Of a DNA stretch of 34,272 bases, positions 8,553-26,853 are shown piece by piece. Both the position numbers and the translations under genes were made by a program. Below the pieces are notes generated by a model. That model was not told the origin of the DNA and ran no database searches. It was given only the letters and a program-made list of their open reading frames with translations. The stretch lies in IMG/VR virus record IMGVR_UViG_3300030451_003486, positions 1 to 34,272 of that record. One strand, given 5' to 3'. This stretch comes from a virus. Each line of letters starts with the position of its first letter. Positions within the stretch are counted from its first letter, which is position 1.

Positions 8553-8920
8553 AGTCTACCGATGGTAGAAAGAATAACGGTCAGAAGCGAGGAGACGCCA
8601 TTTTAAGGCGTTCTCTGAGCACTCCAACTAAAATCAATAAGGCTATGAAGGTCAGGTCAAAACTATTAGCTACAAAGGCTATAAAGGATGTTTATGGATC
8701 TGAAGAAGAGTTCTGGGTTATGGTTGCCGAGAATGCCAGGAACTCACAGTTCGATAGAAAGATGATAGCTGAGTACGTTTATGGTAAACCTGGAGAGAAC
8801 TTAGATATTACGAAAGGAGCTGAGAATGTAGATATATCTATTATGAATTTCTTTCAAGGCACTCCTCAAATAGAAGAAGATAATACAATTGATATAGATG
8901 AAGACACCGAAGCTGAATGA
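8519..8920 (+). CDS. Putative small terminase subunit
   Basis: The 133-residue protein has a very basic N-terminus with TDGRKNNGQKRGDAI, a helical middle (TKINKAMKVRSKLLATKAIK, then DVYGSEEEFWVMVAENA and DRKMIAEYVYGKPGE), and a strongly acidic tail. This basic-helical-acidic plan, the GKP motif and its place directly before the large terminase are typical of small subunits that recognise phage DNA and regulate packaging. Sequence similarity alone is weak. It overlaps the large terminase gene by 23 bases. Confidence 0.7.
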   Translation: MPRKKPERKYMKSTDGRKNNGQKRGDAILRRSLSTPTKINKAMKVRSKLLATKAIKDVYGSEEEFWVMVAENARNSQFDRKMIAEYVYGKPGENLDITKGAENVDISIMNFFQGTPQIEEDNTIDIDEDTEAE

Positions 8921-10109
8921 TAAGTATCAAGCCTTTGGGAATGACTCCAGGTATTTTATTATAACAGGCGGTAGAGGTTCTGGTAAATCTTTTGCTGTGA
9001 ATGTTTTCTTATTGCTGTTGACTTATGAAAGAGGCCATAAGATATTGTTTACTAGATATACAATGGTATCTGCAGCTTCATCTATTATTCCTGAATTTAT
9101 TGAAAAGCTAGAAATGATGGGAGTGAGCGAAGACTTTAGAATAACTAAAGACGAGATCACGAACATTAAAACTAAGTCTAGTATATTATTTAAAGGTATA
9201 CGTACAGCTTCAGGTAACCAGACGGCATCACTTAAATCTTTAAACGCAATAACTACTTTTGTATTGGATGAGGCGGAAGAGCTTACAAGCGAAGACGACT
9301 TTGATAAGATTGATCAGTCTGTTAGAGTTAAGAATAAACAGAATAGATGTGTACTTATATTAAACCCAACTACAAAAGAACATTGGATCTTTAATCGCTT
9401 CTTTGAGAACAGGCATATACCAGATGGCTTTAATGGTATCAAAGGAGGCATCACTTATATTCATACAACCTACTTAGACAATAAAGATAATCTATCTATA
9501 TCATTCTTGAATCAGATACAAGACATAAGAAGAAGAAGGCCAGAGAAATATAATCATCAGATTATGGGGGCCTGGCTTGAGAAACAAGAAGGTGTTATAT
9601 TTAGAAACTGGAGGATAGGAGAGTTCAATGAGAACTATGATTTATATTATGGTCAAGACTTTGGATTTAGTATTGATCCAACAGTTCTTGTAAAACTAAG
9701 CATAGATAAAAAAGGCAGGAGAATATTCTGTAAAACAATGTACTGCAAAGCTGGGTTGTCAACAACACAGATTGCAGATTACAATATTAGATATGCTGGT
9801 CCTCATTTAATTATCTGTGATAGTTCTGAACCACGTCTAATAAAAGAAGTTAAACTTAAAGGAGTTAATATAAGACCGACCGTTAAACGCAGTGGGTCTA
9901 TACTTACTGGTATTGCTTTACTTCAGGACTTTGATTTGATTGTGGATCCTGACTCCACTGAACTTATAAAGGAACTTAACAATTATGTTTGGGCAACTAA
10001 GGGTCAAACAAAACCTGTTGACAAATGGAATCACAACATTGACGCGATCCGCTACGCAGCTCAATACGCTCTTGAAGGATTTAACAAAGGCTCTTACTCT
10101 ATTCGTTAA
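8898..10109 (+). CDS. terL: Terminase large subunit
   Basis: The 403-residue protein has a complete ATPase domain: Walker A GGRGSGKS at 24-31, Walker B FVLDEAEEL at 121-129 and a coupling motif ILNPT at 154-158. The RNase H-like nuclease domain keeps three metal Asp residues: D254 (YGQDFGFSIDPT), D308 (IICDSSEP) and D382 (NHNIDAIRYA). It drives DNA into proheads and cuts the concatemer. The codons for KRSGS (330-334) are one copy of the dispersed repeat, using CGC for Arg where this genome normally uses AGA, and its TAA lies inside the next copy at 10106. The portal is 17 kb away. Confidence 0.96.
   Translation: MKTPKLNDKYQAFGNDSRYFIITGGRGSGKSFAVNVFLLLLTYERGHKILFTRYTMVSAASSIIPEFIEKLEMMGVSEDFRITKDEITNIKTKSSILFKGIRTASGNQTASLKSLNAITTFVLDEAEELTSEDDFDKIDQSVRVKNKQNRCVLILNPTTKEHWIFNRFFENRHIPDGFNGIKGGITYIHTTYLDNKDNLSISFLNQIQDIRRRRPEKYNHQIMGAWLEKQEGVIFRNWRIGEFNENYDLYYGQDFGFSIDPTVLVKLSIDKKGRRIFCKTMYCKAGLSTTQIADYNIRYAGPHLIICDSSEPRLIKEVKLKGVNIRPTVKRSGSILTGIALLQDFDLIVDPDSTELIKELNNYVWATKGQTKPVDKWNHNIDAIRYAAQYALEGFNKGSYSIR
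9893..9908 (+). repeat. Dispersed repeat copy inside terL
   Basis: TTAAACGCAGTGGGTC matches the repeat found in three clusters downstream, with one G fewer in the G-run. It is read in frame as VKRSGS within the terminase nuclease domain. As the copy inside an essential gene, it may be the source of the others. Confidence 0.75.
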
Positions 10110-10165
10110 ACGCAGTAGGGTTGCATCATTAAACGCAGTAGGGTCGCTCTTAAACATAGTAGGGT
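10106..10165 (+). repeat. Repeat cluster 1: three copies of TTAAACGCAGTAGGGT
   Basis: Copies begin at 10106, 10129 and 10150 (steps of 23 and 21). The first contains the TAA of terL. The third reads TTAAACATAGTAGGGT and also encodes the last residues (PYYV) and the stop of a minus-strand gene. All are in the same orientation. Between copies only short unrelated bases remain. Confidence 0.85.
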
Positions 10166-10278
10166 TTGCCCGTATCTTCATCGTAGAACTCTGTTGATTC
10201 TTTACACTCACTACATCTATTTAGATCAGGTTCGCCTAACCAAGGTGGAGCTGAACAACATTCTGATTTTAAATACAT
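10150..10278 (-). CDS. Small zinc-ribbon-like protein on the minus strand
   Basis: Reading leftward from ATG (10278) to TAA (10150-10152) gives 42 residues: MYLKSECCSAPPWLGEPDLN, then RCSECKESTEFYDEDTGKPY and a final YV. CC...CSEC is the pattern of tiny phage zinc ribbons of the type CCGAP...RCSxCKE...F, which I recognise from many phages as unnamed proteins. It converges on terL and ends inside a dispersed repeat. Its 5' end shares a control region with the rightward gene at 10350. It probably binds zinc; partner unknown. Confidence 0.7.
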   Translation of the reverse strand: MYLKSECCSAPPWLGEPDLNRCSECKESTEFYDEDTGKPYYV

Positions 10279-10284
10279 AACAAT

Positions 10285-10308
10285 TTGTTAACATTAAGTT
10301 AACACTAA
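10285..10308 (+). promoter_or_regulatory. TTAA-rich regulatory element heading accessory cassette 1
   Basis: TTGTTAACATTAAGTTAA and the following CACTAA form a 24-base element that matches 20 of 24 positions at 12001-12024, in front of the next cassette. It has two GTTAAC palindromes with an 11-base step, about one helical turn, as expected for a dimer-binding operator or a UP-like element. It lies between divergent genes (10278 leftward, 10350 rightward). No clear TAnnTTTG box follows here. Confidence 0.6.
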
Positions 10309-10349
10309 GCTACAAAACTTTTCTTAATATTGCTACAAATATTTATTAT

Positions 10350-10613
10350 ATGACAAAAATTGAACACTTTATTAACGGGACCAAAGATGGTCAAATCTTC
10401 TCAGCTACCTTTGTAAAGAAGGATGGTAGTTTGAGAAAGATTACAGCACGTAGAGGCGTAAGAAAAGGAGTCACTGGAAAGGGACTTTCTTTTGAGCCTC
10501 TGACTAAAGGACTACTTCCAGTGTATGATATGCACAAAGAAGGCTTTAGAATGATTAATCTTAATACTTTACAAGAAGTAAAGTTCGAAGGTATAACTTT
10601 AAAATTTAATTAA
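10350..10613 (+). CDS. SH3-barrel-like small phage protein
   Basis: The 87-residue product reads FSATFVKKDGSLRKITARRG, VRKGVTGKGLSF, then LLPVYDMHKEGFRMINLNTL. This resembles the short phage proteins named SH3 beta-barrel fold-containing, with K-x-DGSxRK-x-x-AR-x-GV followed by VYD and FR-x-IN. Members are unstudied. It is the first gene of the accessory block after terL and precedes a TAATATG junction with the next gene, suggesting co-transcription. Confidence 0.72.
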   Translation: MTKIEHFINGTKDGQIFSATFVKKDGSLRKITARRGVRKGVTGKGLSFEPLTKGLLPVYDMHKEGFRMINLNTLQEVKFEGITLKFN

Positions 10614-10614
10614 T

Positions 10615-11157
10615 ATGGAAATAACAGATTTAAATAATAAAATAAGAATTTACACTAGGTTTAAGAGTTATGGTGGTTATGAAGATCCTGACTTGGGAAA
10701 TGGTCATTGGTGTGGATATATAGAGATACCAAAAGGACATCCAGTAAACAATAGAGCATTTGGAGATGCTTGGGAAGATTATGCCATTATAGATAGTTAT
10801 GGTAGAGAAATCAATTACTCTGTTTTTAATGACGGAGTCCTGACTTTAGGTTTTGATTGTGGTCACTCAAGCGACACAAAAGAAACTAATACAGAAGAAT
10901 ACGCAATGAAATGTTTAGAGTTAATGAAGAAAGATGTAATTCAAGAAGGTATTGATTATGTAACAGTCCTTTATAAAGATGGAAGCACAGCTATCTTGAA
11001 CGATATGGATGAAAAACTTAATGATTGTGTAACTAAGGTTATTGACTCTATTGATACATTACATTTTGTAAAAGAATGTTTTGGGAATAATTTAGATGAT
11101 AATTGCTTAATGCATTTATCAAGAACAGTTTTCGGTAAACTAGCAGATAGGTTATGA
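10615..11157 (+). CDS. Conserved phage protein of the GYIxxPxGHP type
   Basis: This 180-residue protein shares features with a widespread unnamed phage family: HWCGYIEIPKGHPVNN near residue 31, followed by a beta region and LTLGFDCGHSSDTKETN. In family members a VHGG motif lies between these blocks; here that region reads GREINYSVFNDG. The His and Cys residues in GHP and DCGH might bind metal. The C-terminal half is helical with no clear match. Its stop overlaps the next ATG (ATGA at 11154). Confidence 0.68.
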   Translation: MEITDLNNKIRIYTRFKSYGGYEDPDLGNGHWCGYIEIPKGHPVNNRAFGDAWEDYAIIDSYGREINYSVFNDGVLTLGFDCGHSSDTKETNTEEYAMKCLELMKKDVIQEGIDYVTVLYKDGSTAILNDMDEKLNDCVTKVIDSIDTLHFVKECFGNNLDDNCLMHLSRTVFGKLADRL

Positions 11158-11330
11158 GAGAGTTAGGTAAAATATTAAGAAGGTTCTGGGGTGCTAAAAG
11201 CACCCAGTACTGGATTTGCGTTCCAACAGAAATGGATAGCAAAGAGGCTAAGGAGGATTTTATCTTCCAGACAATAGAATTTTTAAACAGTAAAATAATT
11301 ATCAAAGATGATACATTCAGCAGACATTAG
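11154..11330 (+). CDS. Small hypothetical protein (58 residues)
   Basis: The frame starts in an ATGA overlap with the previous gene and ends 23 bases inside the next. The product begins MRELGKILRRFWGAKSTQYW and ends KDDTFSRH. Codons 12-17 lie in a perfect 7-bp hairpin (11189-11195 with 11199-11205, loop AAA) that has no T-run after it, so it may be an mRNA element inside the gene. Function unknown. Confidence 0.55.
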   Translation: MRELGKILRRFWGAKSTQYWICVPTEMDSKEAKEDFIFQTIEFLNSKIIIKDDTFSRH

Positions 11331-11541
11331 AAGATTAAAAGATGAGGCTCAGGTTAGATCTGAGGTCTCAAAAAGAGATGAAATAATCTCAAAAAAAGAT
11401 GAGGAAATCTCAAAAAGAGATGTTCAAATCCAAGAGTTAAAAGAAAGGATTGAAGCTTTAACAATAAAGGTTGAAATGCTTCAAGAGTTTATATCCGATG
11501 TGGATGATAAGTATAATTCAAAAACTAATAACAATGGGTAA
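11308..11541 (+). CDS. Coiled-coil protein with tandem repeat
   Basis: The 77-residue product is almost entirely Lys/Glu/Asp-rich helix: SEVSKRDEIISKKDEEISKR, then VQIQELKERIEALTIKVEML. Residues about 20-40 come from three tandem 21-bp DNA units, giving SKRDEII, SKKDEEI, SKRDVQI, exactly seven residues or one heptad each. Slippage can therefore lengthen or shorten the coil without breaking frame. No family is recognised. It overlaps both neighbours. Confidence 0.65.
   Translation: MIHSADIRRLKDEAQVRSEVSKRDEIISKKDEEISKRDVQIQELKERIEALTIKVEMLQEFISDVDDKYNSKTNNNG
11366..11428 (+). repeat. Three 21-bp tandem repeats inside a coiled-coil gene
   Basis: TCTCAAAAAGAGATGAAATA-type units begin at 11366, 11387 and 11408. 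Units one and three also have a small palindrome, CTC-A5-GAG. The 21-bp period equals one heptad. Confidence 0.8.
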
Positions 11542-11809
11542 AAGTAAATCAACATACGTTCACGACATTCACACGCTTCAAGGATCTGACGGAGAGCTGT
11601 ATCTAGGATATAGTGACAATTGTGATGTTGTTATAGAGATTAAGACTTTATGGGACTGGCTACCAAGTATAATTGAAGTAGCTGTTGAACAAAAGAAACT
11701 TCAAGATCTTTTTGACAAAGAAGAGTTTGGAAGAGCAATTGACAAGCTCGATAACTTTGTAGACTTTTCTGATCCTGAAATTCTTAAACGCAGTGGGGTC
11801 GAAAAATAA
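11534..11809 (+). CDS. Hypothetical protein ending in a repeat-encoded tail
   Basis: From ATG 11534 the product has 91 residues; an in-frame ATG at 11471 would overlap the coiled-coil gene by 71 bases and is less likely. It contains VHDIHTLQGSDGELYLGYSD and IEIKTLWDWLPSIIEVAVEQ, with no recognised family. The last residues LKRSGVEK are encoded by the first copy of repeat cluster 2, in the same reading phase as the KRSGS codons of terL. The repeat thus seems to have been captured at the gene's end. Confidence 0.62.
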   Translation: MGKSKSTYVHDIHTLQGSDGELYLGYSDNCDVVIEIKTLWDWLPSIIEVAVEQKKLQDLFDKEEFGRAIDKLDNFVDFSDPEILKRSGVEK

Positions 11810-11875
11810 TTCTTAAACGCAGTGGGGTGCGCCTTCTTAAACGCAGTGGGTTGTTTCTCTTAAACGCAGTAGGGT
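11781..11875 (+). repeat. Repeat cluster 2: four copies of TTCTTAAACGCAGTGGGGT
   Basis: Copies begin (at TTAA) at 11784, 11813, 11837 and 11860, steps of 29, 24 and 23. Copies one and two share 19 bases exactly; copy three has GGG-TT and copy four GTAGGGT. All are in the plus orientation. The first is coding for the end of the previous gene; the rest lie between that gene and the promoter at 12001. Confidence 0.88.
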
Positions 11876-11889
11876 CCGCCTTTGGGCGG
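11876..11889 (+). terminator. G+C-rich hairpin after repeat cluster 2 (possible terminator)
   Basis: CCGCC and GGCGG flank TTTG, followed by a C-rich then pyrimidine-rich tract rather than a clean T-run. In such an A/T-rich genome a fully G/C 5-bp stem stands out. It could end the transcript of cassette 1 or be a DNA structure tied to the repeats. The rest of 11890-12000 holds no gene I can support. Confidence 0.4.
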
Positions 11890-12000
11890 TCCTGCGCCCC
11901 CTCTGTTCTCTTTCTGGTTTTCTGTTCTGGTGGGTCCTGCTATTCATACCGCCAATATTACGACTCAAATTTAACCTGCATATTTCCTCAATTTTAAATA

Positions 12001-12048
12001 TTGTTAATGTTAAGTTAATATTAAATTAACACGGCTTTGCTATGTTTG
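12001..12048 (+). promoter_or_regulatory. Regulatory element and promoter of accessory cassette 2
   Basis: TTGTTAATGTTAAGTTAA plus TATTAA at 12001-12024 repeats the element at 10285 with the same 11-base step between GTTAA units. TATGTTTG at 12041-12048 matches the TAnnTTTG box, and the ATG at 12053 follows 4 bases later. No TTG lies at the expected distance; the GTTAAT at 12014 may take its place. Confidence 0.62.
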
Positions 12049-12052
12049 GGCT

Positions 12053-12436
12053 ATGGAAAATAAATTTAATATTAATGATTTAGAGCTCTTTATCAAGAGT
12101 TTTAAATATTGTTATTTCCTCGAAGGGGATGACAAGACACACAAAAGGCTAGATGATAGCCTTGAACTAATTCAAAAACTGAGAAAATTAGTAGAGAAAG
12201 AACAAGAGATTAAAACGGTTTACGTTGTTAATCATTATGAGGGCGGGGTCCCTGGAGAGTCTGACTGTTGCGGGGTTTATTCTTCGCTTGAAGATGCAAG
12301 AAAAAATCTTCAAAAGGTTGTTAAAGATTTAGACATAAGAAACGCAGGAATTGAAGACGATGAGGCGGACCTTGTGACGTGGGACGGTGACCACGGCTGG
12401 GGACAAATAACAATAGAGGAAAACAAACTAAAATAA
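12053..12436 (+). CDS. Hypothetical protein with VxxVxHYEGG and WDGDHGWG motifs
   Basis: The 127-residue protein has a helical N-terminal half and a C-terminal half with TVYVVNHYEGGVPGESDCCG, VYSSLEDARKNLQKVVKD, then DEADLVTWDGDHGWGQITIE. This looks like a small alpha/beta domain found in several phage and bacterial hypothetical proteins that read VYxVxHY..GxESxCCGVYSS..EA. From about residue 60 the codons (GCG, GGC, GAC, GGG) are clearly richer in G+C than early and late genes. Directly followed by the next gene. Function unknown. Confidence 0.65.
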   Translation: MENKFNINDLELFIKSFKYCYFLEGDDKTHKRLDDSLELIQKLRKLVEKEQEIKTVYVVNHYEGGVPGESDCCGVYSSLEDARKNLQKVVKDLDIRNAGIEDDEADLVTWDGDHGWGQITIEENKLK

Positions 12437-13189
12437 ATGGAATTACAATTGATTAAAAAGGAGCAAGGGTACAAGGTACCTGCGCGCTTATTATCGAACG
12501 GCATCACAAACGCCAAGACAAAAAAGAATAAATTGAAAACATTTATTTTGTATTTAGCACCGCACAAACAAAACAGCAAACGAAAAAATATTTGCCCTTT
12601 TGCGTCTAGAGGTTGCGCGGCTGCGTGTCTTTATACGGCTGGACGCGGTAAATTCTCAAACGTTCAAAACGCCAGAATGAACAAAACAGAATATTTTCTG
12701 GCTGATAAAAAAGGATTTCTTAAGCAATTATTTAGCGAGATTTACAAAGAATATAAAAAGGCTTTAAAAGGTGATTATAAAATCGCCGTCAGGCTTAACG
12801 GCACAAGTGACATTGATTTCTTGCACCTGCTTAAAAATGCCTACGGCTTGGACCCTGCTTTAGCAAAGGGCCGTTTATTGTTTTATGATTACACTAAGGA
12901 TTTTAAAAGGGCTTTGAAATACAAGGATAATGAATTTTATTCTTTGACTTTTTCACGTAGTGAGGACAACTGGGAAAAGTGCAAAAAGGCATTAATTCAA
13001 GGCGTAAATGTTTCGGCTGTTTTTGGTGGTGAGTTGCCAAGATATTACAAAGGTTTTAAAGTTGTAGACGGTGACGAAAGAGACGACATAATGATAGACC
13101 GAAAGGGCGTTATTTTAGGACTTAGGGCAAAGGGTGAAGGTAAAAAAGATTATTCAGGTTTCGTTATAAACAATTATACATTATGGTAA
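12437..13189 (+). CDS. DUF7227-type phage protein with Cys cluster
   Basis: This 250-residue protein carries GITNAKTKKNKLKTFILYLA, then NICPFASRGCAAACLYTAGR and VQNARMNKTEYF, followed by IAVRLNGTSDIDF, and later FYDYTKDFKRAL and LTFSRSEDNWEKC. This is the phage family I know as DUF7227 (CPxASxGCxxxCLxxAGRG, then RLNGTSDIxWE). Three close cysteines suggest a metal or Fe-S site, and YDYTK, FSRSE and VSAVFGG could be strands of a TIM-like barrel; the enzyme activity is not known. In many relatives the last Asp-Phe position is Trp-Glu. It begins directly after the previous stop. Confidence 0.78.
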   Translation: MELQLIKKEQGYKVPARLLSNGITNAKTKKNKLKTFILYLAPHKQNSKRKNICPFASRGCAAACLYTAGRGKFSNVQNARMNKTEYFLADKKGFLKQLFSEIYKEYKKALKGDYKIAVRLNGTSDIDFLHLLKNAYGLDPALAKGRLLFYDYTKDFKRALKYKDNEFYSLTFSRSEDNWEKCKKALIQGVNVSAVFGGELPRYYKGFKVVDGDERDDIMIDRKGVILGLRAKGEGKKDYSGFVINNYTLW

Positions 13190-13410
13190 CAAATAAAAGT
13201 TATTTAACATATATATTAATGACTCGATATTTTGGCACTAAGCAGGCTAATTATAATCAAGATGAAATTGTAAACCATATTATTGATAAAATAATTCAAG
13301 AGGTTAATGACGAAGACGTCGACGAAAAAGACCAATATTCTCTATTGAAAGAGTTGATTTTTTTTGCTGTGGATCTGGACGCGTTAGAAGACCATTTAAA
13401 GGGTTATTAA
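13183..13410 (+). CDS. Small hypothetical protein ending in a repeat stop codon
   Basis: The 75-residue product (MVTNKSYLTYILMTRYFGTK, then IVNHIIDKIIQEV and LLKELIFFAVDLDALEDHLK) is acidic and helical. It overlaps the DUF7227-type gene by 7 bases. Its TAA at 13408-13410 is the TAA of the first repeat of cluster 3, so the repeat replaces the gene's natural end. No family recognised. Confidence 0.6.
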   Translation: MVTNKSYLTYILMTRYFGTKQANYNQDEIVNHIIDKIIQEVNDEDVDEKDQYSLLKELIFFAVDLDALEDHLKGY

Positions 13411-13441
13411 ACGCAATGGGCTTTCTTAAACGCAATGGGGT
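13407..13441 (+). repeat. Repeat cluster 3: two copies of TTAAACGCAATGGGGT
   Basis: Copies start at 13407 and 13426, a 19-base step. Both have CAATGGG where other clusters have CAGTGGG or CAGTAGG, so each cluster has its own variant. The first forms the stop of the gene before it. The bases between 13442 and 13513 hold no gene I can support. Confidence 0.82.
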
Positions 13442-13513
13442 TGCCAGAGGAAAAATACGAAAATCAAAAATTCTGAACCTCGCAAAATAAGTCAAAAATA
13501 TTTTATGAACAAA

Positions 13514-13545
13514 TGTTAATTAATCCATTTTTTTTATATATTAGC
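13514..13545 (+). promoter_or_regulatory. Early-type promoter of accessory cassette 3
   Basis: TGTTAATTAA (13514-13523), a T-run and TATATTAGC (13537-13545) precede ATG 13549. The same parts in the same order lie before the ERF gene (2941-2968), with 4 fewer bases between them and nearly the same distance to the ATG. This suggests that cassette 3 is expressed with the early genes. Confidence 0.6.
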
Positions 13546-13548
13546 ACT

Positions 13549-13746
13549 ATGAGAAACAAAGAACAACTCAAGCACTTGCACAAGTCCAGAAAAGAGGCGC
13601 GCAAGTTAAAGGCTGTGAAAAAGAGTAACAGTAACTTTATTTTAAATCAAATTTTTGAGGACCAGTATAGAGGTTTAAACAAACCTTTTAGACTGGAAAG
13701 CAAGCAAGAAATTATTGACAGACTGTTTAACTATAAAAGAGGATAA
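13549..13746 (+). CDS. Small basic hypothetical protein (65 residues)
   Basis: I start at ATG 13549, directly after the promoter; an in-frame ATG at 13513 would put the promoter inside the gene. The product begins MRNKEQLKHLHKSRKEARKL, is very basic for 30 residues, then reads NFILNQIFEDQYRGL and QEIIDRLFNYKRG. No family is recognised. A short nucleic-acid-binding protein is plausible from charge alone. Confidence 0.6.
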   Translation: MRNKEQLKHLHKSRKEARKLKAVKKSNSNFILNQIFEDQYRGLNKPFRLESKQEIIDRLFNYKRG

Positions 13747-13750
13747 AGAG

Positions 13751-14107
13751 ATGAACTACGAAAATAAATTTATAGAATTACAGGACGAACTTAAAGGCAT
13801 TAATATTGACCTTGATAATTATTGTAAACCTGAGGACATTTATTTACTTCAGGATGCAACAGACCTTTACGACTTATTAAATGACCACGCGGCATTTGGT
13901 GAGCAAATTATTGGATACTATAAAGCGGCAAAGTACTTAAGTATTAATGACCCTAGTTTTCATAATTCGATAAACTGGGCGCAGCAAAGAGGCTACAAGG
14001 TTGCGGATTTTACAAGTGAATTACTAGCAAGTGTCCACAAGAGTCAAACCTTGATACATTCCTTCTGGAATTGTGAAAAAGAAATTAACAATATAATTTG
14101 GAAATAA
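13751..14107 (+). CDS. Hypothetical helical protein (118 residues)
   Basis: The start at ATG 13751 follows an AAAGAG stretch 4-9 bases upstream, one of the few possible Shine-Dalgarno sites here; an in-frame ATG at 13715 lies inside the previous gene. The product has ENKFIELQDELKGINIDLDN, LYDLLNDHAAFGEQIIGYYK and a Trp-rich C-terminus. It looks all-helical and soluble. I do not recognise it. The next gene starts in a TAATG overlap. Confidence 0.6.
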   Translation: MNYENKFIELQDELKGINIDLDNYCKPEDIYLLQDATDLYDLLNDHAAFGEQIIGYYKAAKYLSINDPSFHNSINWAQQRGYKVADFTSELLASVHKSQTLIHSFWNCEKEINNIIWK

Positions 14108-14334
14108 TGAGCGAAACAAAAGAAATTAAAACTGTTAGAATAATGAACAAAGCGGAAAGCATCAAGCTTTGTGCTGTCGGCAGGGTTCAGGAAATACTAG
14201 AAAAAAGGGGCGTCAAAATGGACGTCCCGACTTTCAACATAGCTATGCAGGCGGCAGGCCACGCAATTGTTGAAATGGCAACAAGAGATTTATTGAAAAT
14301 AGATTTAAATAAATTATACGGATATGAAGATTAA
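14107..14334 (+). CDS. Small hypothetical protein (75 residues)
   Basis: A TAATG overlap favours ATG 14107 over the in-frame ATG at 14098. The product contains NKAESIKLCAVGRVQEILEK and VPTFNIAMQAAGHAIVEMAT, all predicted helices with a small-residue pattern that suggests a dimeric bundle. GC-rich codons (GCG, GGC, GAC) continue here. No family recognised. Confidence 0.6.
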   Translation: MSETKEIKTVRIMNKAESIKLCAVGRVQEILEKRGVKMDVPTFNIAMQAAGHAIVEMATRDLLKIDLNKLYGYED

Positions 14335-14434
14335 AGACAAACTAAATAAACTTTTAGACGATAATAGATTCATCGCCCTTGTTGTATATTTGGGCGCGTT
14401 CGCCTTCACTGTATTTTTTAGTATTGATTTTTAA
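14324..14434 (+). CDS. Small single-span membrane protein (36 residues)
   Basis: This frame overlaps the end of the previous gene by 11 bases. The product has a charged start (MKIKDKLNKLLDDNR) and a hydrophobic helix FIALVVYLGAFAFTVFFSI ending next to the C-terminus. Its size and single span resemble tiny phage membrane effectors or exclusion proteins; that role is speculative. A terminator follows 17 bases after the stop. Confidence 0.55.
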   Translation: MKIKDKLNKLLDDNRFIALVVYLGAFAFTVFFSIDF

Positions 14435-14450
14435 TAAATACGTGATAATA

Positions 14451-14479
14451 TTTAACCCTCTTATTTTTAGGGGGTTAAA
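14451..14479 (+). terminator. Terminator closing the accessory region
   Basis: TTTAACCC (14451-14458) pairs with GGGTTAAA (14472-14479), extended inward by a T-G and a C-G pair, with an A/T loop. A short TTTT follows at 14480-14483. Because both arms have T/A ends it could work on both strands. It separates the accessory cassettes from the late region. Confidence 0.65.
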
Positions 14480-14594
14480 TTTTACTCTTCCTGCTTCACC
14501 CTTCTCGGATATCATTTTAACAAAATCCGCCCTCTAATCTCACAAAAATGGCCTTAAAACGGGTCCAGATAGGACCATTCAACGTAAAACGGAT

Positions 14595-14735
14595 ATGTCT
14601 AGTGGTACTTTCCTACCTTTAATCAAATCAACCCAAAACGATATGAGTTGTTTAGCGATCGGATTAAGCACACCAATAAACATCAAAGAGTTGGACGCTG
14701 ATCTAGCGTCTAACGAAATACCTGTAATTATATAA
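14595..14735 (+). CDS. Possible small gene or gene remnant in the 14.4-15.0 kb gap
   Basis: An open frame of 46 codons starts MSSGTFLPLIKSTQNDMSCL and ends ADLASNEIPVII; the frame is open upstream to 14538 without another ATG. The residues look plausible for protein and the codons are unlike those of its neighbours, but there is no recognisable family and no junction with another gene. It may be a real small gene, a decayed remnant, or chance. Otherwise 14435-14978 (544 bases) holds only the terminator, inverted repeats and start element listed separately. Confidence 0.25.
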   Translation: MSSGTFLPLIKSTQNDMSCLAIGLSTPINIKELDADLASNEIPVII

Positions 14736-14817
14736 GGAAAAAATTAGATATAGTATGCCCGAGGCCACTCTATATATAATATATATCTATTTTTAAATCT
14801 GGTTTATTGTTGCTGTA

Positions 14818-14858
14818 GAGAATCTATTGACGTTCATCTGTATCAGATTCTCGTCAAT
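14818..14858 (+). other. Interlocking inverted repeats (pseudoknot or switch candidate)
   Basis: GAGAATCT (14818-14825) is the reverse complement of AGATTCTC (14845-14852), and ATTGACG (14826-14832) of CGTCAAT (14852-14858). The order is A-B-A'-B', so the two stems cross: either a pseudoknot or two exclusive hairpins. The arms share base 14852. A perfect 12-bp palindrome, TCTATATATAGA, follows at 14859-14870. All lie 120-160 bases before the first late gene. Confidence 0.5.
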
Positions 14859-14963
14859 TCTATATATAGATAATCATTTTTTTTTGACTTTGTTCCACTT
14901 TTTGAGGGGTAAAATATTAAAAGTTATTAACAGGCCAAACTGCTTGGTACAATAATATAATTA

Positions 14964-14975
14964 TTTGATTATCTA
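14964..14975 (+). promoter_or_regulatory. Late start element TTTGATTATCTA, copy 1
   Basis: TTTGATTATCTA stands exactly 3 bases before ATG 14979. The identical 12 bases occur exactly 3 bases before ATG 26920. Both are the first genes after a terminator. It does not fit the TAnnTTTG box. It may be a late promoter read by the phage sigma-like protein or a translation start signal. Confidence 0.6.
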
Positions 14976-14978
14976 ATT

Positions 14979-15689
14979 ATGAGTAAAACATATAAGTTAC
15001 AAGTCCCTGTTTCTTTAGATGATATAACGATAAGTCAATACCAAAAATACATAAAGGTATTAGAAGACAATAAAGATTCAGAAGACACTAATTTCTTAAA
15101 CTTAAAGCTCTTGAATATCTTTTGTGATATTACAATGAAAGAGGCTTATGAGTTGCCAATCCAGGAGTTTGAATATATATTAAATCACCTGGCGACTATT
15201 CTATCAGAAAAACCATTTTTACATCACAGGTTTTTTATGGAAGATCCAAAAGGAGATACAATTGAATTTGGCTTTATACCAAATTTAGATAAAATCACTC
15301 TAGGTGAATATGTAGATGCAGAAAACTATTTATCTAACTGGGAAGATATGCATAAAGCTATGTCGGTCCTTTATAGACCGATCATAGCGGGTAATAAGGA
15401 TTTTTATAAAATAGAAAAATATGAAGGAAGTGATAAGTATTCTGAAATTATGAAAGATGCTCCAGCTTCTGTTGCATTAGGCACTATCCTTTTTTTTTTG
15501 AATTTAGGGATAGACTTGTCGAAAATTACAATGGACTCTTTACTCAAACAGCAGGAGACATTGAAAGAGGATCCTACACACAAGGATTCAGTAAAAAGTG
15601 GGGATGGTATCAATCAATATACTCACTTAGTAAAGGAAATGTCTTCAAAATTGACGAAGCTACAAAACTCAATGTACATAAAGCAATGA
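14979..15689 (+). CDS. Tail assembly chaperone (zero-frame product)
   Basis: The 236-residue product starts MSKTYKLQVPVSLDDITISQ and has FGFIPNLDKITLGEYVDAEN and MSVLYRPIIAGNKDFYKIEK, features of an unnamed flavobacterial phage family encoded ahead of the tail genes. After residue 170 it crosses a run of ten T (15490-15499; codons CTT TTT TTT TTG) and continues to TGA 15687-15689. Overlapping this end, the -1 frame is open for 87 codons to the next gene's start. Position before tail genes, the 0/-1 pair and the T TTT TTT slippery heptamer match the lambda G/GT type of tail assembly chaperone. Chaperone identity is inferred mainly from this architecture. Confidence 0.75.
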   Translation: MSKTYKLQVPVSLDDITISQYQKYIKVLEDNKDSEDTNFLNLKLLNIFCDITMKEAYELPIQEFEYILNHLATILSEKPFLHHRFFMEDPKGDTIEFGFIPNLDKITLGEYVDAENYLSNWEDMHKAMSVLYRPIIAGNKDFYKIEKYEGSDKYSEIMKDAPASVALGTILFFLNLGIDLSKITMDSLLKQQETLKEDPTHKDSVKSGDGINQYTHLVKEMSSKLTKLQNSMYIKQ

Positions 15690-15757
15690 TGTGGTTAGAA
15701 TTTGAAAAAGAGAAAAACGATTTAGAAGCAAGATTAATTAAACAAGCTCACAGATGA
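15497..15757 (+). CDS. Minus-1 frame extension of the tail assembly chaperone
   Basis: This open segment has no start codon at its beginning and would be reached by a -1 shift on T TTT TTT (15491-15497). It adds 86 residues to the first 173, giving about 259 in total. It contains FSKKWGWYQSIYSLSKGNVF and ATKLNVHKAMMWLEFEKEKN, the kWGWyxxiyxLxxgxxxkidxvtxl pattern I associate with T-domain extensions of flavobacterial phage chaperones. The stop overlaps the next start (ATGA at 15754-15757), as for real genes in this operon. An error in the T-run (eleven T) would give the same fused product without recoding. Confidence 0.72.
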   Translation, partial: FEFRDRLVENYNGLFTQTAGDIERGSYTQGFSKKWGWYQSIYSLSKGNVFKIDEATKLNVHKAMMWLEFEKEKNDLEARLIKQAHR

Positions 15758-16215
15758 TAGCAGTATACGAAACACTAGACAAAATAAAAAATCTACTTAG
15801 AGAAAATCCGTCAACTCAAACAGTGACGTTTGGAGATCTGATGGAAGTAGACCTAGCTAAAACAACTATATTTCCATTAGCACACGTGCAAATAGGGAAC
15901 GTAACATTTAGAGATCATATAATTGTTATGGAAGTTGCGGTTCTATTTTTAGATATAGTAGACGACAACAGAGAAACAAATTCTTTTGATCAATTTTATG
16001 ATAACGATAATCTTATTGACATCTTAAACACTCAGCTATCTGCAGCTAATATTTTACAAGGCAAACTTAGAAGAGGCGCAGCATACAATGAGTTATTTCA
16101 AGTCCAAGGAGATATATCTGCTCAACCGTTCTTAGATAGATTTGAAAATCAATTAGCAGGATGGGGAGTAGATTTAGTAATTGAATTACCTAATAAAACT
16201 ACAAGCGTTTGTTAA
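15754..16215 (+). CDS. Minor structural protein (tail completion/terminator candidate)
   Basis: The 153-residue protein begins MIAVYETLDKIKNLLRENPS and has FPLAHVQIGNVTFRDHIIVM and FENQLAGWGVDLVIELPNKT; the GWGxDxxIxLPN ending is typical of a structural protein in flavobacterial siphophages, in a strand-rich fold like tail terminators. It lies between the chaperone and a gp10-like protein, where tail completion proteins are expected. The exact role is inferred from order. Confidence 0.68.
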   Translation: MIAVYETLDKIKNLLRENPSTQTVTFGDLMEVDLAKTTIFPLAHVQIGNVTFRDHIIVMEVAVLFLDIVDDNRETNSFDQFYDNDNLIDILNTQLSAANILQGKLRRGAAYNELFQVQGDISAQPFLDRFENQLAGWGVDLVIELPNKTTSVC

Positions 16216-16713
16216 ATGGCAGTAAACCTAGAACCTATATTAGATAAATTAGCAGATGATCTCATAGAACAAATGAGAATAGAGATAATGCAAAAATATC
16301 CTCATCCTGCAAAAGCAAGCGGAAGACTACTCGATTCTTTCAGCAAAGAGGTGACTGACAATAAACTTACAATATTAAATGAAGCTTCAGAGTCAGGTTA
16401 TTTTTATTCTGGTAATGTAGACTTAGGTAGAAGACCTGGTCAAATGCCACCTGTAAGTAAAATAAGACAATGGATGGAGAGAAAAGGAATTACAAGTAGA
16501 GATAGCAAAACAGGTCGATTTATGAGAAAAAGAGATGGAGCTTTTGCTATAGCTAAAAAAATAGCAGACTATGGATACCACGGAATAAATTATACAGAAA
16601 ACGCAGTCAGAAAATTTGAAAGCTATATTATAGATTCATTAGGAGAAAAATATGTAGAAGAATTAAACGAGATGTTAAAACAAAATATATCAAGATTTGA
16701 ATTAAACGATTAA
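16216..16713 (+). CDS. HK97 gp10-like head-tail or tail completion protein
   Basis: In this 165-residue protein, NVDLGRRPGQMPPVSKIRQW (residues 72-91) and MERKGITSR are close to gp10-type motifs (GRxPGxMPPxxxIxxWMxxKGI), followed by AFAIAKKIADYGYHGI. Such proteins help join head and tail or finish the tail. The C-terminal helix is extended. It follows the previous stop directly and is 4 bases before the next gene. Confidence 0.75.
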   Translation: MAVNLEPILDKLADDLIEQMRIEIMQKYPHPAKASGRLLDSFSKEVTDNKLTILNEASESGYFYSGNVDLGRRPGQMPPVSKIRQWMERKGITSRDSKTGRFMRKRDGAFAIAKKIADYGYHGINYTENAVRKFESYIIDSLGEKYVEELNEMLKQNISRFELND

Positions 16714-16717
16714 AAAT

Positions 16718-18508
16718 ATGCCAGCATTTTATACACCACAATTAGCAAGAAGTCCAATATTTTATAAAGCTGCTGCCGCATTAGCAGAAAAATTTACATA
16801 CAGTATTTATATATATACAGGACACTATACAACAAATAAACCATCGACAGCAACTTACACAATCACAAAAGATAAAGTTGCAGATGTAGTTGAAGTTGGA
16901 ACAATAACAAGTAAAACAGCAAATAAGCTTGTTGATTCAGTTAAACTGTTTAGCGAAACGGTTGAAGCTGGAGACTTAGTATATAATACTACAGGTAACA
17001 CAATAGCTATAGTAAGCTCAGTAGATAGTGATACTCAATTAACTTTAGATACAGACATATTTCCTGTTTCTGGAAACTTAGATTCTTATAAAATATTTAG
17101 TAAAACGTCAGCATCTATAGAGATCGCTGAACTTATAAGGGATTATTTTAAAACTGAATATTACAACTTAGCCGTAGACGCAGTATGGGTAGAGATAGAT
17201 ACAACAGTACAAATAACGTCTGGAACAACAACATCAGCAACAACTAACAAATTAGTTGATACTGATAATAATTTCATCAGAAAGTTATTACCGTCTTCTT
17301 TTACATTAACTGCAAACAATACTACGGATGCTACGTCAGCAACTGTTTCAGCAGTTGATGATGATAATACTTTATCTGTATCTAGTGATATTTTTGCGTC
17401 AGGAGAAACCTACACAATAAATATGTCAGCTACGGCTAGTAACGGAACTCCCTGGATTACTTTAGATGGATATGGGTTTTTTAAAGATGGTTTAAATCCT
17501 GGTAATACAATACTTGCTCAAAAGCAAGTCTTAATGACTAACTCTAAAATATACTTTATTAAAGGTAAAGATATTGTAATACCAGTTTATGCTCCTTTGC
17601 AATCTACACTCAGTTTCAATATATCAGGATCTTCTACAGTTTTTTGGAATGCTGTAGATAATTTCTGGAACACTTATTCTCAAAGCTGGGGTACAATAGT
17701 AGATCCTATAAAAATTACAGATGGTGATGTTAAAGATTCTGGAACTGCAGATGGAACAACAACTAACAAATTAGTAGATGGATCTGTAGGTAAAAGTTTT
17801 ACTACTACAGTAAAAGTAGGTATGACGGTATATAACACAACCGACAGCACGTTTACAAACGTGACTGCGGTTGATAGTGACACTCAATTAACTTTAGCAG
17901 ATGATATAATGGTTTCAGGAGAAAGTTATCAAATACAAGACGGAAGATCTGCAGACAAAATTCAATACGTAGTCATATCTCAAACTAATAATTTTACAGG
18001 AGGTACAATTACAGTTACAGACGGAACAGGACAATCCTTAACAAGAACGTTGACTCTAGAAGAGTCCAGGTGTTCTAAGTATACTGCATATAAAGTTATA
18101 TTCTATAACAGATTTGGTGCACTGCAAGAAATATTATTTACTAGAAAATCTACTAAAACATTAGAAACAAACTTCGATGAATATAAAAGAAGCACAGTTA
18201 ATTTTAATTTAGCTAGTTTTTCTTATGATAAATATAAAGCTCAAAAACAAAGAATAGATATTCAAGGAACAGAAACCCTTACATTAAATACAGATTTCTT
18301 AGAAGAGGGTATTTCTGATCCTATACAAGAATTATTAATGAGTGAGCAAATATGGGTAGATGAAGGTATTTTAAATACAGAAGCTTCAATTCATCCAGTA
18401 ATTATAAGAAGTACGTCTGTAGAAAAGAAAACAAATGTAAATAATAAATTAGTTAGCTATACAATAGAATTTGAATTTGCTAACGATAAAATACAAAATA
18501 TCAGATAA
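16718..18508 (+). CDS. Large structural (tail) protein with three internal repeats
   Basis: The 596-residue protein starts MPAFYTPQLARSPIFYKAAA and has IYIYTGHYTTNKPSTATYTI and IEIAELIRDYFKTEYYN, a framework I know from flavobacterial phages, followed by a beta-rich C-terminal domain with SADKIQYVVISQTNNF. Three similar 65-70-residue modules occur at 61-128, 169-234 and 342-407, each with TxNKLVD, then VDSDTQLTL or a variant, then DIF or DIM and a final SGxxY. Without them it would be near 400 residues. The modules look like inserted beta sandwiches or barrels displayed on the virion. It overlaps the next gene by one base. Confidence 0.75.
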   Translation: MPAFYTPQLARSPIFYKAAAALAEKFTYSIYIYTGHYTTNKPSTATYTITKDKVADVVEVGTITSKTANKLVDSVKLFSETVEAGDLVYNTTGNTIAIVSSVDSDTQLTLDTDIFPVSGNLDSYKIFSKTSASIEIAELIRDYFKTEYYNLAVDAVWVEIDTTVQITSGTTTSATTNKLVDTDNNFIRKLLPSSFTLTANNTTDATSATVSAVDDDNTLSVSSDIFASGETYTINMSATASNGTPWITLDGYGFFKDGLNPGNTILAQKQVLMTNSKIYFIKGKDIVIPVYAPLQSTLSFNISGSSTVFWNAVDNFWNTYSQSWGTIVDPIKITDGDVKDSGTADGTTTNKLVDGSVGKSFTTTVKVGMTVYNTTDSTFTNVTAVDSDTQLTLADDIMVSGESYQIQDGRSADKIQYVVISQTNNFTGGTITVTDGTGQSLTRTLTLEESRCSKYTAYKVIFYNRFGALQEILFTRKSTKTLETNFDEYKRSTVNFNLASFSYDKYKAQKQRIDIQGTETLTLNTDFLEEGISDPIQELLMSEQIWVDEGILNTEASIHPVIIRSTSVEKKTNVNNKLVSYTIEFEFANDKIQNIR

Positions 18509-20598
18509 TGTTTGTAATTGAATTATTCATACAAGATAATGACGGTTCTGATGTCAGAATGGATATGTTTAAAGATGAGTCTGTGTCTATAACACAGACC
18601 ATCCAAGACGTTAGAGATATAGGCAGTGTATTTACAGACTTTACAAGAACATTCAGCTTACCTGCTTCTAAAACAAACAATAAAGTATTTAAACATTATT
18701 ATAACTCAGATGTAGTTAGTTCTAGTAATAATTTGTTAAGTGACTTTGATGCAAGAAAAAGAAGATCTGCTAGAATAGAATTAAATCATACTCCTTACAA
18801 AAAAGGTAAAATAAGATTAGATGGAGTGAATATGAGAGATGGTAAACCTTATACTTATAGGGTTACATTTTTTGGTGAGACTATTAACTTGATCAGCTTA
18901 ATGGCAGATGATAAATTAAGCTCACTAGATCTATCTTCTTTTGATACAACTTATACAGCAACTCAACTAAAATCAAAGCTTGTAAATGCTGTTTCTGATT
19001 TGATAGTTCCTTTAATTACTCATACAAGAAGATTAGTATATGATTCAGGATCTACTACTTATGACGGAATTGTAGATAATTTAGGAAAACAACCTAGCTC
19101 AGGAACTGATAACAAAGGATTACTTTTAACTGAATTAAAATATGCTCTTAGGGTGCATAAAATAGTTGAAGCAATACAAACAAAATATGATCTAACATTT
19201 TCAGATGATTTCTTTAACACAACAAATACACCATATTATAATTTATTTATGTGGTTACACAGAAAGTCTGGTGATGTTGGTTCTGATTCTCAAGTATCAG
19301 AACCTTTTATCAAGCAAATAAAAACATTTCAAACAGGAACATTTAATGCTGGATCAGGATATGACAGTTCTATTGTATCAAACGGAACAACATTGACTGT
19401 AGAAGGAGACGATAATCTTAACTTTCAAATACAAGTTGTTCCTTCAGACAGTTCAATAACATATAAGATAGACGCTTTTTTAGGCGGTAATTTAGAATAT
19501 AGCACGTCAGGAACAGGAACTCAAACTTTAGATATGGTAGGATTATTTAGTCCTAGTGTTGTTGGAGAAGGTGACTACACTTTCAATGTTAGTACAACTT
19601 CATCTTCACCTTTATCAGTATCTGGTACAGTTACTATGACTGTTGAAGGTGGTATTTCTTTACCTGAAACAACTTACAGCTTAACATTTAGTTCTACTTC
19701 AATTTCAGCTAACCCTCCGTTCAATATATCTACAGAAATACCTGAAATAAAAAATATAGATTTTTTAACAGGGTTATTTAAAATGTTTAATCTAACTGCT
19801 TTTGTAGAGGACGATGGAACAATTAAAATACAAACTTTAGATTCTTTTTATGCTGCAGGTGTAGATTATGACATAACAGATTACATAGATATAAATGAAT
19901 CTCAGATAGATTCTGCTTTACCCTATAAAGAAGTTGATTTTAGATATCAAGGAAGAGATTCTTTCTTTTCTATAACACACGAAAAGATATTTGGTTTAGA
20001 ATGGGGTACAGATGAATTTTTAACGGTAGATCCAGACGGAAGTGTTTATAAAGTAGAAGCACCTTTTGAACATCATAAGTTCCAAAGATTATTAGATCTA
20101 AATGATACATCTGGAGATACATCTACTAAAATTCAATGGGGCTGGTCTGCAAATGAAAATCAAGAACCTTATATTGGTAGGCCTTTATTGTTTTACCCTA
20201 TAAGAGTAACTTCAGGAGAAGAAATATATTTCAGAGAGTCTACAGGATCTTCAGGAAGCAACACAAGTTATATTGTTCCTTCTAATTCTGTAGAATTAAA
20301 TAATACTTCTCAAAGTATAAACTTTAGTGCTGAATTTAATGAGTATGAGGTTGCTCCTCCTAAAGTATCTACAAACGGATTATTTAAAACTTATTATAAT
20401 AAATATATAAGTGATGTATTTGATGCTAAAAATAGACTTACTAAGGTTACAGCATTTTTGCCACCTGAAGTTTTATTGAACTTCACGTTGGCTGATAGAT
20501 TTATTATCAATCAGAAAAGTTATAAGATAAACTCAATAACTACTGATATGTATAATGGTAAAAGTGAAATAGAATTATTAAATGACTTCGATGCTTAA
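18508..20598 (+). CDS. Tail tip or baseplate structural protein
   Basis: The 696-residue protein starts MFVIELFIQDNDGSDVRMDM and continues DVRDIGSVFTDFTRTFSLPA, LNHTPYKKGKIRLDGVNMRD and YTYRVTFFGETINLISLM; the C-terminus has VLLNFTLADRFIINQKSYKI. This set (RxxxxLPAxxxN, KGKIRLxxV, FFGxxxxL) marks a family of large flavobacterial phage proteins encoded just before the tape measure. The middle (residues about 280-400) is Ser/Thr/Gly-rich beta, perhaps an inserted host-binding module. Baseplate role is inferred from gene order. Confidence 0.72.
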   Translation: MFVIELFIQDNDGSDVRMDMFKDESVSITQTIQDVRDIGSVFTDFTRTFSLPASKTNNKVFKHYYNSDVVSSSNNLLSDFDARKRRSARIELNHTPYKKGKIRLDGVNMRDGKPYTYRVTFFGETINLISLMADDKLSSLDLSSFDTTYTATQLKSKLVNAVSDLIVPLITHTRRLVYDSGSTTYDGIVDNLGKQPSSGTDNKGLLLTELKYALRVHKIVEAIQTKYDLTFSDDFFNTTNTPYYNLFMWLHRKSGDVGSDSQVSEPFIKQIKTFQTGTFNAGSGYDSSIVSNGTTLTVEGDDNLNFQIQVVPSDSSITYKIDAFLGGNLEYSTSGTGTQTLDMVGLFSPSVVGEGDYTFNVSTTSSSPLSVSGTVTMTVEGGISLPETTYSLTFSSTSISANPPFNISTEIPEIKNIDFLTGLFKMFNLTAFVEDDGTIKIQTLDSFYAAGVDYDITDYIDINESQIDSALPYKEVDFRYQGRDSFFSITHEKIFGLEWGTDEFLTVDPDGSVYKVEAPFEHHKFQRLLDLNDTSGDTSTKIQWGWSANENQEPYIGRPLLFYPIRVTSGEEIYFRESTGSSGSNTSYIVPSNSVELNNTSQSINFSAEFNEYEVAPPKVSTNGLFKTYYNKYISDVFDAKNRLTKVTAFLPPEVLLNFTLADRFIINQKSYKINSITTDMYNGKSEIELLNDFDA

Positions 20599-20734
20599 AC
20601 ATATATTAGACTTATTAAAACTAAATGATTATAACGGAATATCTCCGTATATCGATATAGCTAAGGGTAAATACGAAGCTCCTAGCAACTTAAAAGAAGC
20701 AATAAACAAAACAAAACGATTTAAAAATGGCTAG
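20591..20734 (+). CDS. Small protein between tail tip and tape measure
   Basis: A 47-residue frame starts 8 bases inside the preceding gene and ends 8 bases into the tape-measure gene. The product begins MLKHILDLLKLNDYNGISPY and contains LAKGKYEAPSNLKEAI-like sequence (here IAKGKYEAPSNLKEAI) and KTKRFKNG. Short proteins with IAKGKYEAPxNLKEAI are, as I recall, found at this place in related phages. It is too short for usual gene callers. Role unknown. Confidence 0.65.
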   Translation: MLKHILDLLKLNDYNGISPYIDIAKGKYEAPSNLKEAINKTKRFKNG

Positions 20735-22898
20735 ACAAAAAATAGAAGTAGAAATTAAAATAGTTGGAACACAAGCTCAAGTCAAAATAAAACAACTTGA
20801 CGATGCTTTCAGAGATGCAGCTACAGGAGCTGATTTAATGAATGAAGCTATTGATCGTGGCAGTAAATTATTAAAAGGTAGTGTTGGAGACTTAAGAAGA
20901 CAAATAAGAGCATTAGAATTAGTAAGAGACAATACGGCAAAAACAACTAAACAGTTCTTTGAACAAGATAAACAAATACAAGTATTAAGAAATAGAGTTT
21001 CTGAGATAACTGATACGAACTCAAAATTTGCTAAAGTAAATCAAGATTTAATATCTTCTTCTGGTTTAGCTGGCGCTACTTTAACAGAACTTGGTAGAAC
21101 TATATCAGATATGCCTTATGGTATACGAGGTGTAACAAACAACTTATCTCAGTTATCTACTTTGATGGTTACATTAATGGCTAAAACTGGAGGAACTACA
21201 AAAGCTTTTCAATTATTAGGAGCTCAATTAAGAGGACCTTTAGGTCTTATTTTAGCATTCCAGGCGGTTATAGCTGCCATTGATTTTTTCTTTGGTTCTA
21301 CTAAAAAAGCAGAAGAAGCAACAGATGATTTTACAGACTCATTAAATATAAATCTAGAAGTTACAAGAATATATTTAGAAGCATTAGAAAACACAAATGA
21401 TTCTTTAGAGGAAAGGTCAAAACTTTTACGTGGCGCATCTACAAGGCACAGTGCACTTAAAAAGATACTAGCAGATGAAACTTTAACCCAGGAACAAAGA
21501 ACTGAAAAAGCTCAGAAGTTTTTAGATCTTGAGTTTTCTAGACTTTCTTTGAATGATGAGATGTTGTCTCAACAAAAACATTTATTTGATGCTGAAGCAA
21601 ATTTATCAGAACAAAAATCAAAACTAAATGATTTAAAACAGCAAGAGTCAAAGCTTAATAAAGAAGTAATTGAAGATGGTGGACTTCAAAGTGAATTAAA
21701 CGAAAGAATAGAAGCGCAAACCATACAATTAACAAATGCTGAAAAAGAGTTTAATGATACTAGACACGTTTTTCTTGAGTTGTCTAACCAATTAGCTATT
21801 GTAGAAAAACAGCAAGTTGAATTAACTAAGCAAGTTAAAAAAGCAAAAGACGATGAAACAAAAAGTCAGCTTGATTTAAATGCTGCGATTTTTGAAGGAT
21901 TAAACTTTTACACTAAATATAATGAACTTCAAGAAAGACAGAGAGATATTCAAAAAGTTAGAAGAAATATAGAAATAGCTAACATTAAAAAAATATTAGC
22001 TCAAGATATATTAGGATTAAAAGAAAGATCTACATCAAGAGAGCAATTTGAAAAAGACAAAGAAAAGTTAATTGATAAAGCTATACAAAAAGAAATAGAC
22101 TCTATAGAAATAGCTTTAAAAGTAGATACGTTAAGTGTATTGGAAAGAGAAAAGCTTTACGAAAGACTTTATAAATTAAAAGCTTCTTTAATAGATTTAG
22201 ATGGTGATGCTGCAAAAGGTCTCGACAAGGTCATTAACGCTGCTAAAAAAGCAGCAGAGTTTTTAAAATTTGGCATAGATTCTATTACCGCTCAAATAGA
22301 CGCAGAAATATCTCAAGAAGAAAGAAAGACTATGCTTGTTAATAATGAATTAAAAAAGAGAATTATTAATGAGAAGTTAACTGCAGACCAAAAAGAAGCT
22401 ATAAACAACCAGATAGAAAAAAACGAAGTTGCTTTACAAGAAAAAAGAGATAAGCTAGCAGAGAAAGCATTTAAAACTCAAAAAGCCTTATCTATAACTT
22501 CAGCCTTAATAGGCACTGCTGAAATGGCTATAGATGCTTTTGGTACTATTAAAGGTATGAAGTTCTTAGGTCCTGCAGCATTGCCTTTAGCAATAGCTGC
22601 GGCAGCAACAGCAACCGCATTTGGATTAAAACAAGTTGATGCAATAAGAAAAACTCAATTTGTTCCTAGTGCAGCTCCTGGATCAACTAGAGTTTCTGGA
22701 CTAGGTGGAGCAGGTGGTACTGGAGGCGGAATACAAGATCCTACATTCAACATAGTCGGTACAGGTCAACAATTCCAATTATCTCAAGCAATTGCACAAA
22801 GAACTGGAGAGCCTGTTAAAGCTTATGTTGTAACAGGAGATGTAAGATCTGGATTAGCTCTTGAACGTAATATAATTAAAGGTTCTAAGCTAGGATAA
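20727..22898 (+). CDS. Tail tape measure protein
   Basis: The 723-residue protein is mostly long helices with many Lys, Glu and Gln. Hydrophobic segments lie near residues 165-190 (GPLGLILAFQAVIAAIDFFF) and 618-637 (ALPLAIAAAATATAFGLKQV), and a Gly-rich C-terminus follows. It begins MARQKIEVEIKIVGTQAQVK and has ISDMPYGIRGVTNNLSQLST, common in tape measures of flavobacterial phages. Its length sets tail length; at about 1.5 angstrom per residue the tail would be roughly 110 nm. Order (after chaperone and tail proteins) agrees. Confidence 0.88.
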   Translation: MARQKIEVEIKIVGTQAQVKIKQLDDAFRDAATGADLMNEAIDRGSKLLKGSVGDLRRQIRALELVRDNTAKTTKQFFEQDKQIQVLRNRVSEITDTNSKFAKVNQDLISSSGLAGATLTELGRTISDMPYGIRGVTNNLSQLSTLMVTLMAKTGGTTKAFQLLGAQLRGPLGLILAFQAVIAAIDFFFGSTKKAEEATDDFTDSLNINLEVTRIYLEALENTNDSLEERSKLLRGASTRHSALKKILADETLTQEQRTEKAQKFLDLEFSRLSLNDEMLSQQKHLFDAEANLSEQKSKLNDLKQQESKLNKEVIEDGGLQSELNERIEAQTIQLTNAEKEFNDTRHVFLELSNQLAIVEKQQVELTKQVKKAKDDETKSQLDLNAAIFEGLNFYTKYNELQERQRDIQKVRRNIEIANIKKILAQDILGLKERSTSREQFEKDKEKLIDKAIQKEIDSIEIALKVDTLSVLEREKLYERLYKLKASLIDLDGDAAKGLDKVINAAKKAAEFLKFGIDSITAQIDAEISQEERKTMLVNNELKKRIINEKLTADQKEAINNQIEKNEVALQEKRDKLAEKAFKTQKALSITSALIGTAEMAIDAFGTIKGMKFLGPAALPLAIAAAATATAFGLKQVDAIRKTQFVPSAAPGSTRVSGLGGAGGTGGGIQDPTFNIVGTGQQFQLSQAIAQRTGEPVKAYVVTGDVRSGLALERNIIKGSKLG

Positions 22899-22936
22899 GA
22901 AACAAAACAAATTAACTAAAAAAAGATTTACTTATT

Positions 22937-24618: not shown

Positions 24619-24668
24619 AAATACAACAGACAGATAAATAATTAATTAACTATATATATTTTATTATT

Positions 24669-25187: not shown

Positions 25188-25199
25188 TATTAAATAATT

Positions 25200-26147: not shown

Positions 26148-26165
26148 TAAATTATTGTATAATCG

Positions 26166-26835: not shown

Positions 26836-26853
26836 TGATTTCATAACCTTTGT

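Follow-up and report, generated by a model that had tools for sequence, protein, structure and literature searches.

A gene in the tail module of a virus from the IMG/VR collection almost certainly encodes two proteins with a common front and different ends, through a programmed -1 transition of the reading frame at a run of ten T's. The DNA read as written would yield a protein of 236 residues, while the frame of some messages or translations would move by -1 at the run to give a 259-residue fusion, whose last 85 residues belong to a different conserved domain. The overall explanation that fits the evidence best, to which we give a probability of a little under 60%, is a tail-module gene with two products whose frame is moved mainly by slippage of RNA polymerase.

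The slippage site and its two reading frames

The window is the whole 34,272-base stretch of the IMG/VR virus record analyzed here, and all of its features are given in coordinates of that stretch. The T10 run lies on the plus strand at 15490-15499, where an earlier sequence-only reading of this DNA had found it, and the codons across it are CTT TTT TTT TTG in the zero frame. It contains the in-phase heptamer T TTT TTT that the same reading had pointed out (plus strand, 15491-15497), and a second in-phase heptamer, T TTT TTG, follows at 15494-15500 (plus strand). The zero-frame open reading frame (14979-15689, plus strand) does encode 236 residues, as had been counted: 173 residues up to the slip, which make up the N-terminal domain shared by both products, and a tail of 63 residues. 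We propose that this is a gpG-like product, and its AlphaFold2 model has a pLDDT of 82.

The -1 frame is open from 15446, before the run, to 15757, and holds FSKKWGWYQSIYSLSKGNVF and MMWLEFEKEKNDLEARL. The domain that it encodes behind the run (15500-15757, plus strand) has 85 residues plus the stop codon, carries a KWGWY motif, and would be the C-terminal part of a gpGT-like fusion, for which a -1 shift at the T run predicts 173 + 1 + 85 = 259 residues. That this frame lacks a usable start of its own and ends in an ATGA overlap, both noted before, holds up as well. It has ATGs only at 15686 and 15689, after the greater part of the conserved domain, and no GTG or TTG precedes them; its TGA stop (15755-15757) shares bases with the start codon of the next gene, an ATG at 15754. 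A second run of nine T's, at 14877-14885, is non-coding, lies about 100 bases upstream of the frameshifted gene, and is possibly part of a promoter region.

Conservation in relatives

Scans of IMG/VR and of a prokaryote genome collection, queried with the proteins of both frames and with alignments of them, produced 355 loci that encode both domains, the conserved N domain among them, with 189 distinct junctions. The P12024 phages came from a phage collection by way of the N domain; the other loci were not selected by their T run. The sequence-only reading had proposed checking both frames for conservation in relatives, and the check bears it out: both frames are kept open, and relative to the first domain the second is encoded in the -1 frame in 354 of the 355 loci. 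A run of exactly nine or ten T's is found at every one of the distinct junctions (189/189), and the in-phase T TTT TTT heptamer is present in every relative. The matches from the genome collection fall on contigs labelled Bacteroidetes, Flavobacteriaceae, Winogradskyella, Dysgonomonas and Prevotella, labels that point to Bacteroidota hosts.

The two open frames are more than a product of chance. Synonymous resampling of one frame in 55 representatives left the other frame open with a median probability of 0.008 for the zero frame and 0.002 for the -1 frame. Past the run the zero frame stays open for a median of 60 codons and the -1 frame for a median of 85; the +1 frame runs into a stop after two codons in 161 of 188, which is probably a by-product of a near-invariant TTTAGG (Leu-Gly and Phe-Arg in the two frames). 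Conservation of the -1 frame starts directly behind the T run, and its domain shows the motif KWGWYxSIY, in which W-G is invariant in the alignment. Synonymous constraint was considered and set aside as proof that the zero-frame protein functions: codon conservation is 1.33 times the expected level in the overlap, hardly above the 1.26 at the single-coding end of the -1 frame, so that the zero-frame tail is seen to be kept open while selection on its residues is not demonstrable. The last helix before the T run (PxxVxxGxxxFFYxLGxEL) and the final one of the -1 domain (LxVHxCLxxLxFEKEKNELE) are similar, and MAFFT aligned the two to each other, a possible internal repeat.

The sole exception among the 355 loci, designated L283, is a prophage of Dysgonomonas sp. 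520 (NZ_QVMP01000015) with ten T's at 7979-7988, vs. nine in its sister prophage L282. The two domains are fused in the DNA of L283, and the frame of the short product is still open. The T10 of L283 is either a natural variant or a homopolymer error, and one assembly error would explain it. If L283 makes two products, polymerase slippage could supply them and a -1 ribosomal shift could not.

Mechanism of the frame transition

We infer that RNA polymerase slippage is probably the main mechanism that moves the frame. The nine to ten T's would span the RNA:DNA hybrid, the nascent U run would slide back one step, and one extra U would be added. Because one added U leads to the -1 frame, ordinary translation of such a message would then enter it; slippage of the ribosome on the in-phase U UUU UUU may contribute, and polymerase and ribosomal slippage may both be acting. 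Runs of nine A's or T's cause bacterial RNA polymerase to slip efficiently (PMC5009743), single insertions dominate in homopolymer slippage (PMC5574713), and conservation of a 9T run in all homologues has been held to point to purposeful slippage (PMC1088944). The sequence-only reading had proposed a lambda-type -1 shift and had named polymerase slippage as a mere alternative. The programmed -1 transition and the two proteins are strongly supported, with 354 of 355 loci behind them; the ribosomal mechanism is not established, since nine to ten T's are kept where a heptamer needs fewer, and slippage of the polymerase on this conserved run is the somewhat better supported of the two.

Judging from the aligned homologues, the length of the run is kept beyond coding need, with some amino-acid confounding remaining. 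On a FastTree phylogeny of 156 representatives, at least 38 amino-acid changes fall on the codon holding the first T and at least 30 on the residue that follows the run; the run switched codon phase on at least 10 occasions and was never under nine. The next codon starts with T in all 146 cases in which eight or fewer T's precede it, vs. 7 of the 10 in which nine or more do (Fisher p 2e-4, a value that kinship makes optimistic). Leucine after the run is likewise encoded by TTR (TTG or TTA) in 30/30 cases with fewer than nine preceding T's, and CTG appears only where nine already precede, even though a change from TTG to CTG would be synonymous in the zero frame, would keep the -1 Phe where a T run precedes, and would spare the heptamer. 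The Phe codons of the site are TTT in all 156 representatives, vs. 58-84% at other conserved Phe columns. Long runs are avoided elsewhere in these loci: among 649 other genes, runs of nine or more T's were observed once vs. 12.1 expected (computed without the site gene), and runs of nine or more A's four times vs. 39.6, with the steepest drop at nine. Replication slippage may be the cause of this avoidance. A preference for certain amino acids (V/L/I-F-F-Y/W/L), and Leu and Phe in the -1 frame, can account for some of the extra T's.

Ribosomal -1 frameshifting alone, the P- and A-site tRNA-Phe slipping on U UUU UUU and the extra T's reflecting an amino-acid constraint from two frames, is a possibility that we entertain only tentatively. 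The in-phase heptamer of every relative suits it, and tail chaperones are known to rely on ribosomal frameshifting, mostly at a low level (PMC5009743), with 7% measured in one tested cluster (PMC3711429). Moreover, because an in-phase T TTT TTT lies within each T9 run, the sequence always leaves room for it. The length of the run speaks against it: the heptamer requires only seven T's, and no run has fallen below nine despite the many codon changes. Stimulators of ribosomal slippage, which are not always needed, did not emerge from the searches either. A Shine-Dalgarno-like sequence near the site is absent in 45 of 55 representatives; RNAalifold, applied to pseudoknot-free structures on 20 sequences, predicts no pair downstream; and fold energies near the site are average vs. 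shuffled sequences. L283, if its sequence is right, would be unable to make both products in this way. A heptamer that needs seven T's, a run never under nine, the avoidance of such runs in neighboring genes, and the failure of the searches to show a ribosomal stimulator together favor polymerase slippage over ribosomal slippage alone.

It is very improbable that the -1 domain is instead translated on its own, whether from a start codon inside its frame or through coupled re-initiation. One homologue, P12024L_41, is annotated as a separate gene in just this way, and in 71 of 156 representatives an ATG, GTG or TTG occurs in the part of the -1 frame that is open ahead of the motif. No such codon exists in the other 85, the window included, which rules out an internal start for most relatives, and both the invariant T run and the conservation that begins right behind it speak against a start within the -1 frame. 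Phase variation, in which replication slippage would toggle the DNA between fused and unfused states, deserves still less credence: T9-T10 runs are mutable in DNA, and L283 differs from L282 by one such change, but a switch would leave many loci in the fused state and only 1 of 355 is found there, the other 354 ruling it out. Weakest of all, and hardly conceivable, is a sequencing or assembly error in a true genome of eleven T's with one continuous gene, an alternative raised by the sequence-only reading and lent some color by the error-prone nature of homopolymers and by the in-frame fusion that one extra T creates in L283, since the -1 arrangement recurs in 354 of 355 loci from independent assemblies, the cultured P12024L and P12024S genomes included, and the zero frame continues well beyond the run without a stop, against a single long gene.

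Genome neighborhood and a likely chaperone-like role

Gene order places the frameshifted gene in a tail module. The terminase large subunit gene (8898-10109, plus strand) anchors the module upstream, as it does in 233 loci, and the gene joined to the frameshifted gene by the ATGA overlap (15754-16215, plus strand) is found directly downstream in 332 loci. The predicted structure of its product (pLDDT 78) has a tail terminator fold, like that of lambda gpU: nearly all of its best structural matches are phage tail terminators (Foldseek E 4e-5 to 1e-3), and its comparison with gpU itself gives Z 12.2 and an rmsd of 2.9 over 126 residues. This neighbor, together with the synteny, argues for assignment to the tail module, and it supports the tail chaperone-like role suggested earlier. 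Next is a neck or tail completion-like gene (16216-16713, plus strand), which matches phrog_29822, the family of its P12024L homologue; that homologue has a weak match to phrog_5, "tail completion or Neck1." Two large tail genes lie downstream in about 250 loci. The 723-residue tape-measure-like product of 20727-22898 (plus strand) matches Pfam TMP_N with E 9e-4, below the curated cut-off. Its gene begins 5 kb downstream and is not adjacent, contrary to the earlier placement of the frameshift just before the tape measure. Across 8898-28519 the terminase gene comes first, followed by the frameshifted gene, the terminator and other tail genes and the tape-measure-like gene; the protease, the likely capsid and tail tube genes and the portal gene come only after these, an order that differs from that of lambda.

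From this genome position and the two-product architecture we infer that the pair very likely has a chaperone-like role in the tail. Acting like lambda gpG/gpGT, it would coat the tape measure protein, recruit tail tube subunits and then leave. Searches of Pfam, NCBIfam, PHROGs and PDB gave no informative match, in sequence or in fold, that would tie the pair to a known family of chaperones; the fold of the N domain has no significant match in PDB, and its matches in a viral library are uncharacterized. Given this, and the distance from the tape measure gene, the pair is likened to the lambda pair and not filed as a member of its family. A weak match to phrog_166, "tail protein," seen in 5 of 42 members, proved only marginal on follow-up and was not used.

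Comparison with known systems

As in lambda gpG/gpGT, a single tail-module gene yields an N-domain protein and, through a -1 transition, a longer fusion that adds a second domain (PMC5009743). The slip in lambda comes close to the 3' end of G, whereas in the present family the zero frame runs on past the slip for tens of codons. The family also differs from lambda in having a T9-T10 run as its slip site, a tail terminator gene following directly, and the tape-measure-like gene far off.

The cultured Nonlabens phages P12024L (JQ823123) and P12024S (JQ823122) have a homologous gene with the same T9 site. They share the order of terminase, frameshifted gene, homologues of the 15754 and 16216 genes, large tail genes and tape-measure-like gene, but their N domain is about 30% identical and their zero-frame tail has only about 24 codons. 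The gene is annotated in both as two independent hypothetical proteins, without a frameshift; P12024L_40/_41 (8998-9692 of locus L123) and P12024S_38/_39 (3007-3701 of locus L124) each represent one frameshifted gene. The family phrog_38404 (55 positions), matched by 8 of 34 -1 domains, looks like the C-terminal portion of the -1 domain, called as a gene from an internal ATG. Flavobacterium phage 6H encodes a distant fold relative of the N domain (L360, 10047-10927, minus strand). The phage 6H gene has no T9 run; after it comes an unannotated gap of some 300 bases, in which the -1 frame is open toward the end.

Thermus dnaX, Shigella mxiE/spa13 and IS elements resemble the present family in having an A or T homopolymer of at least nine, conserved in length, with products from both frames (PMC5009743, PMC1088944, PMC3711429). 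These examples of programmed transcriptional slippage are bacterial and IS genes, whereas the present family is a phage tail gene whose mRNA is predicted to be heterogeneous at the run.

Implications

Frameshifted tail chaperones are already known, as is programmed transcriptional slippage in bacteria; our searches of the open-access literature turned up neither a case of transcriptional slippage in a tail chaperone gene nor any mention of this gene family. There is perhaps a slightly better than even chance that, across a large clade of Bacteroidota phages, the ratio of the two chaperones is set not by ribosomal frameshifting but by slippage of the polymerase on an invariant T9-T10 run. If so, the outcome of lambda gpG/gpGT would be reached through a different molecular step. 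The family adds a large and so far unannotated two-product tail gene to the phages of Bacteroidota, spanning marine and other metagenomic viruses, Flavobacteriaceae-associated contigs, and contigs of Dysgonomonas and Prevotella, and it shows a cultured phage to be misannotated. Should RNA polymerase prove to slip at these sites, control of the tail chaperone ratio would have arisen by a non-ribosomal route.
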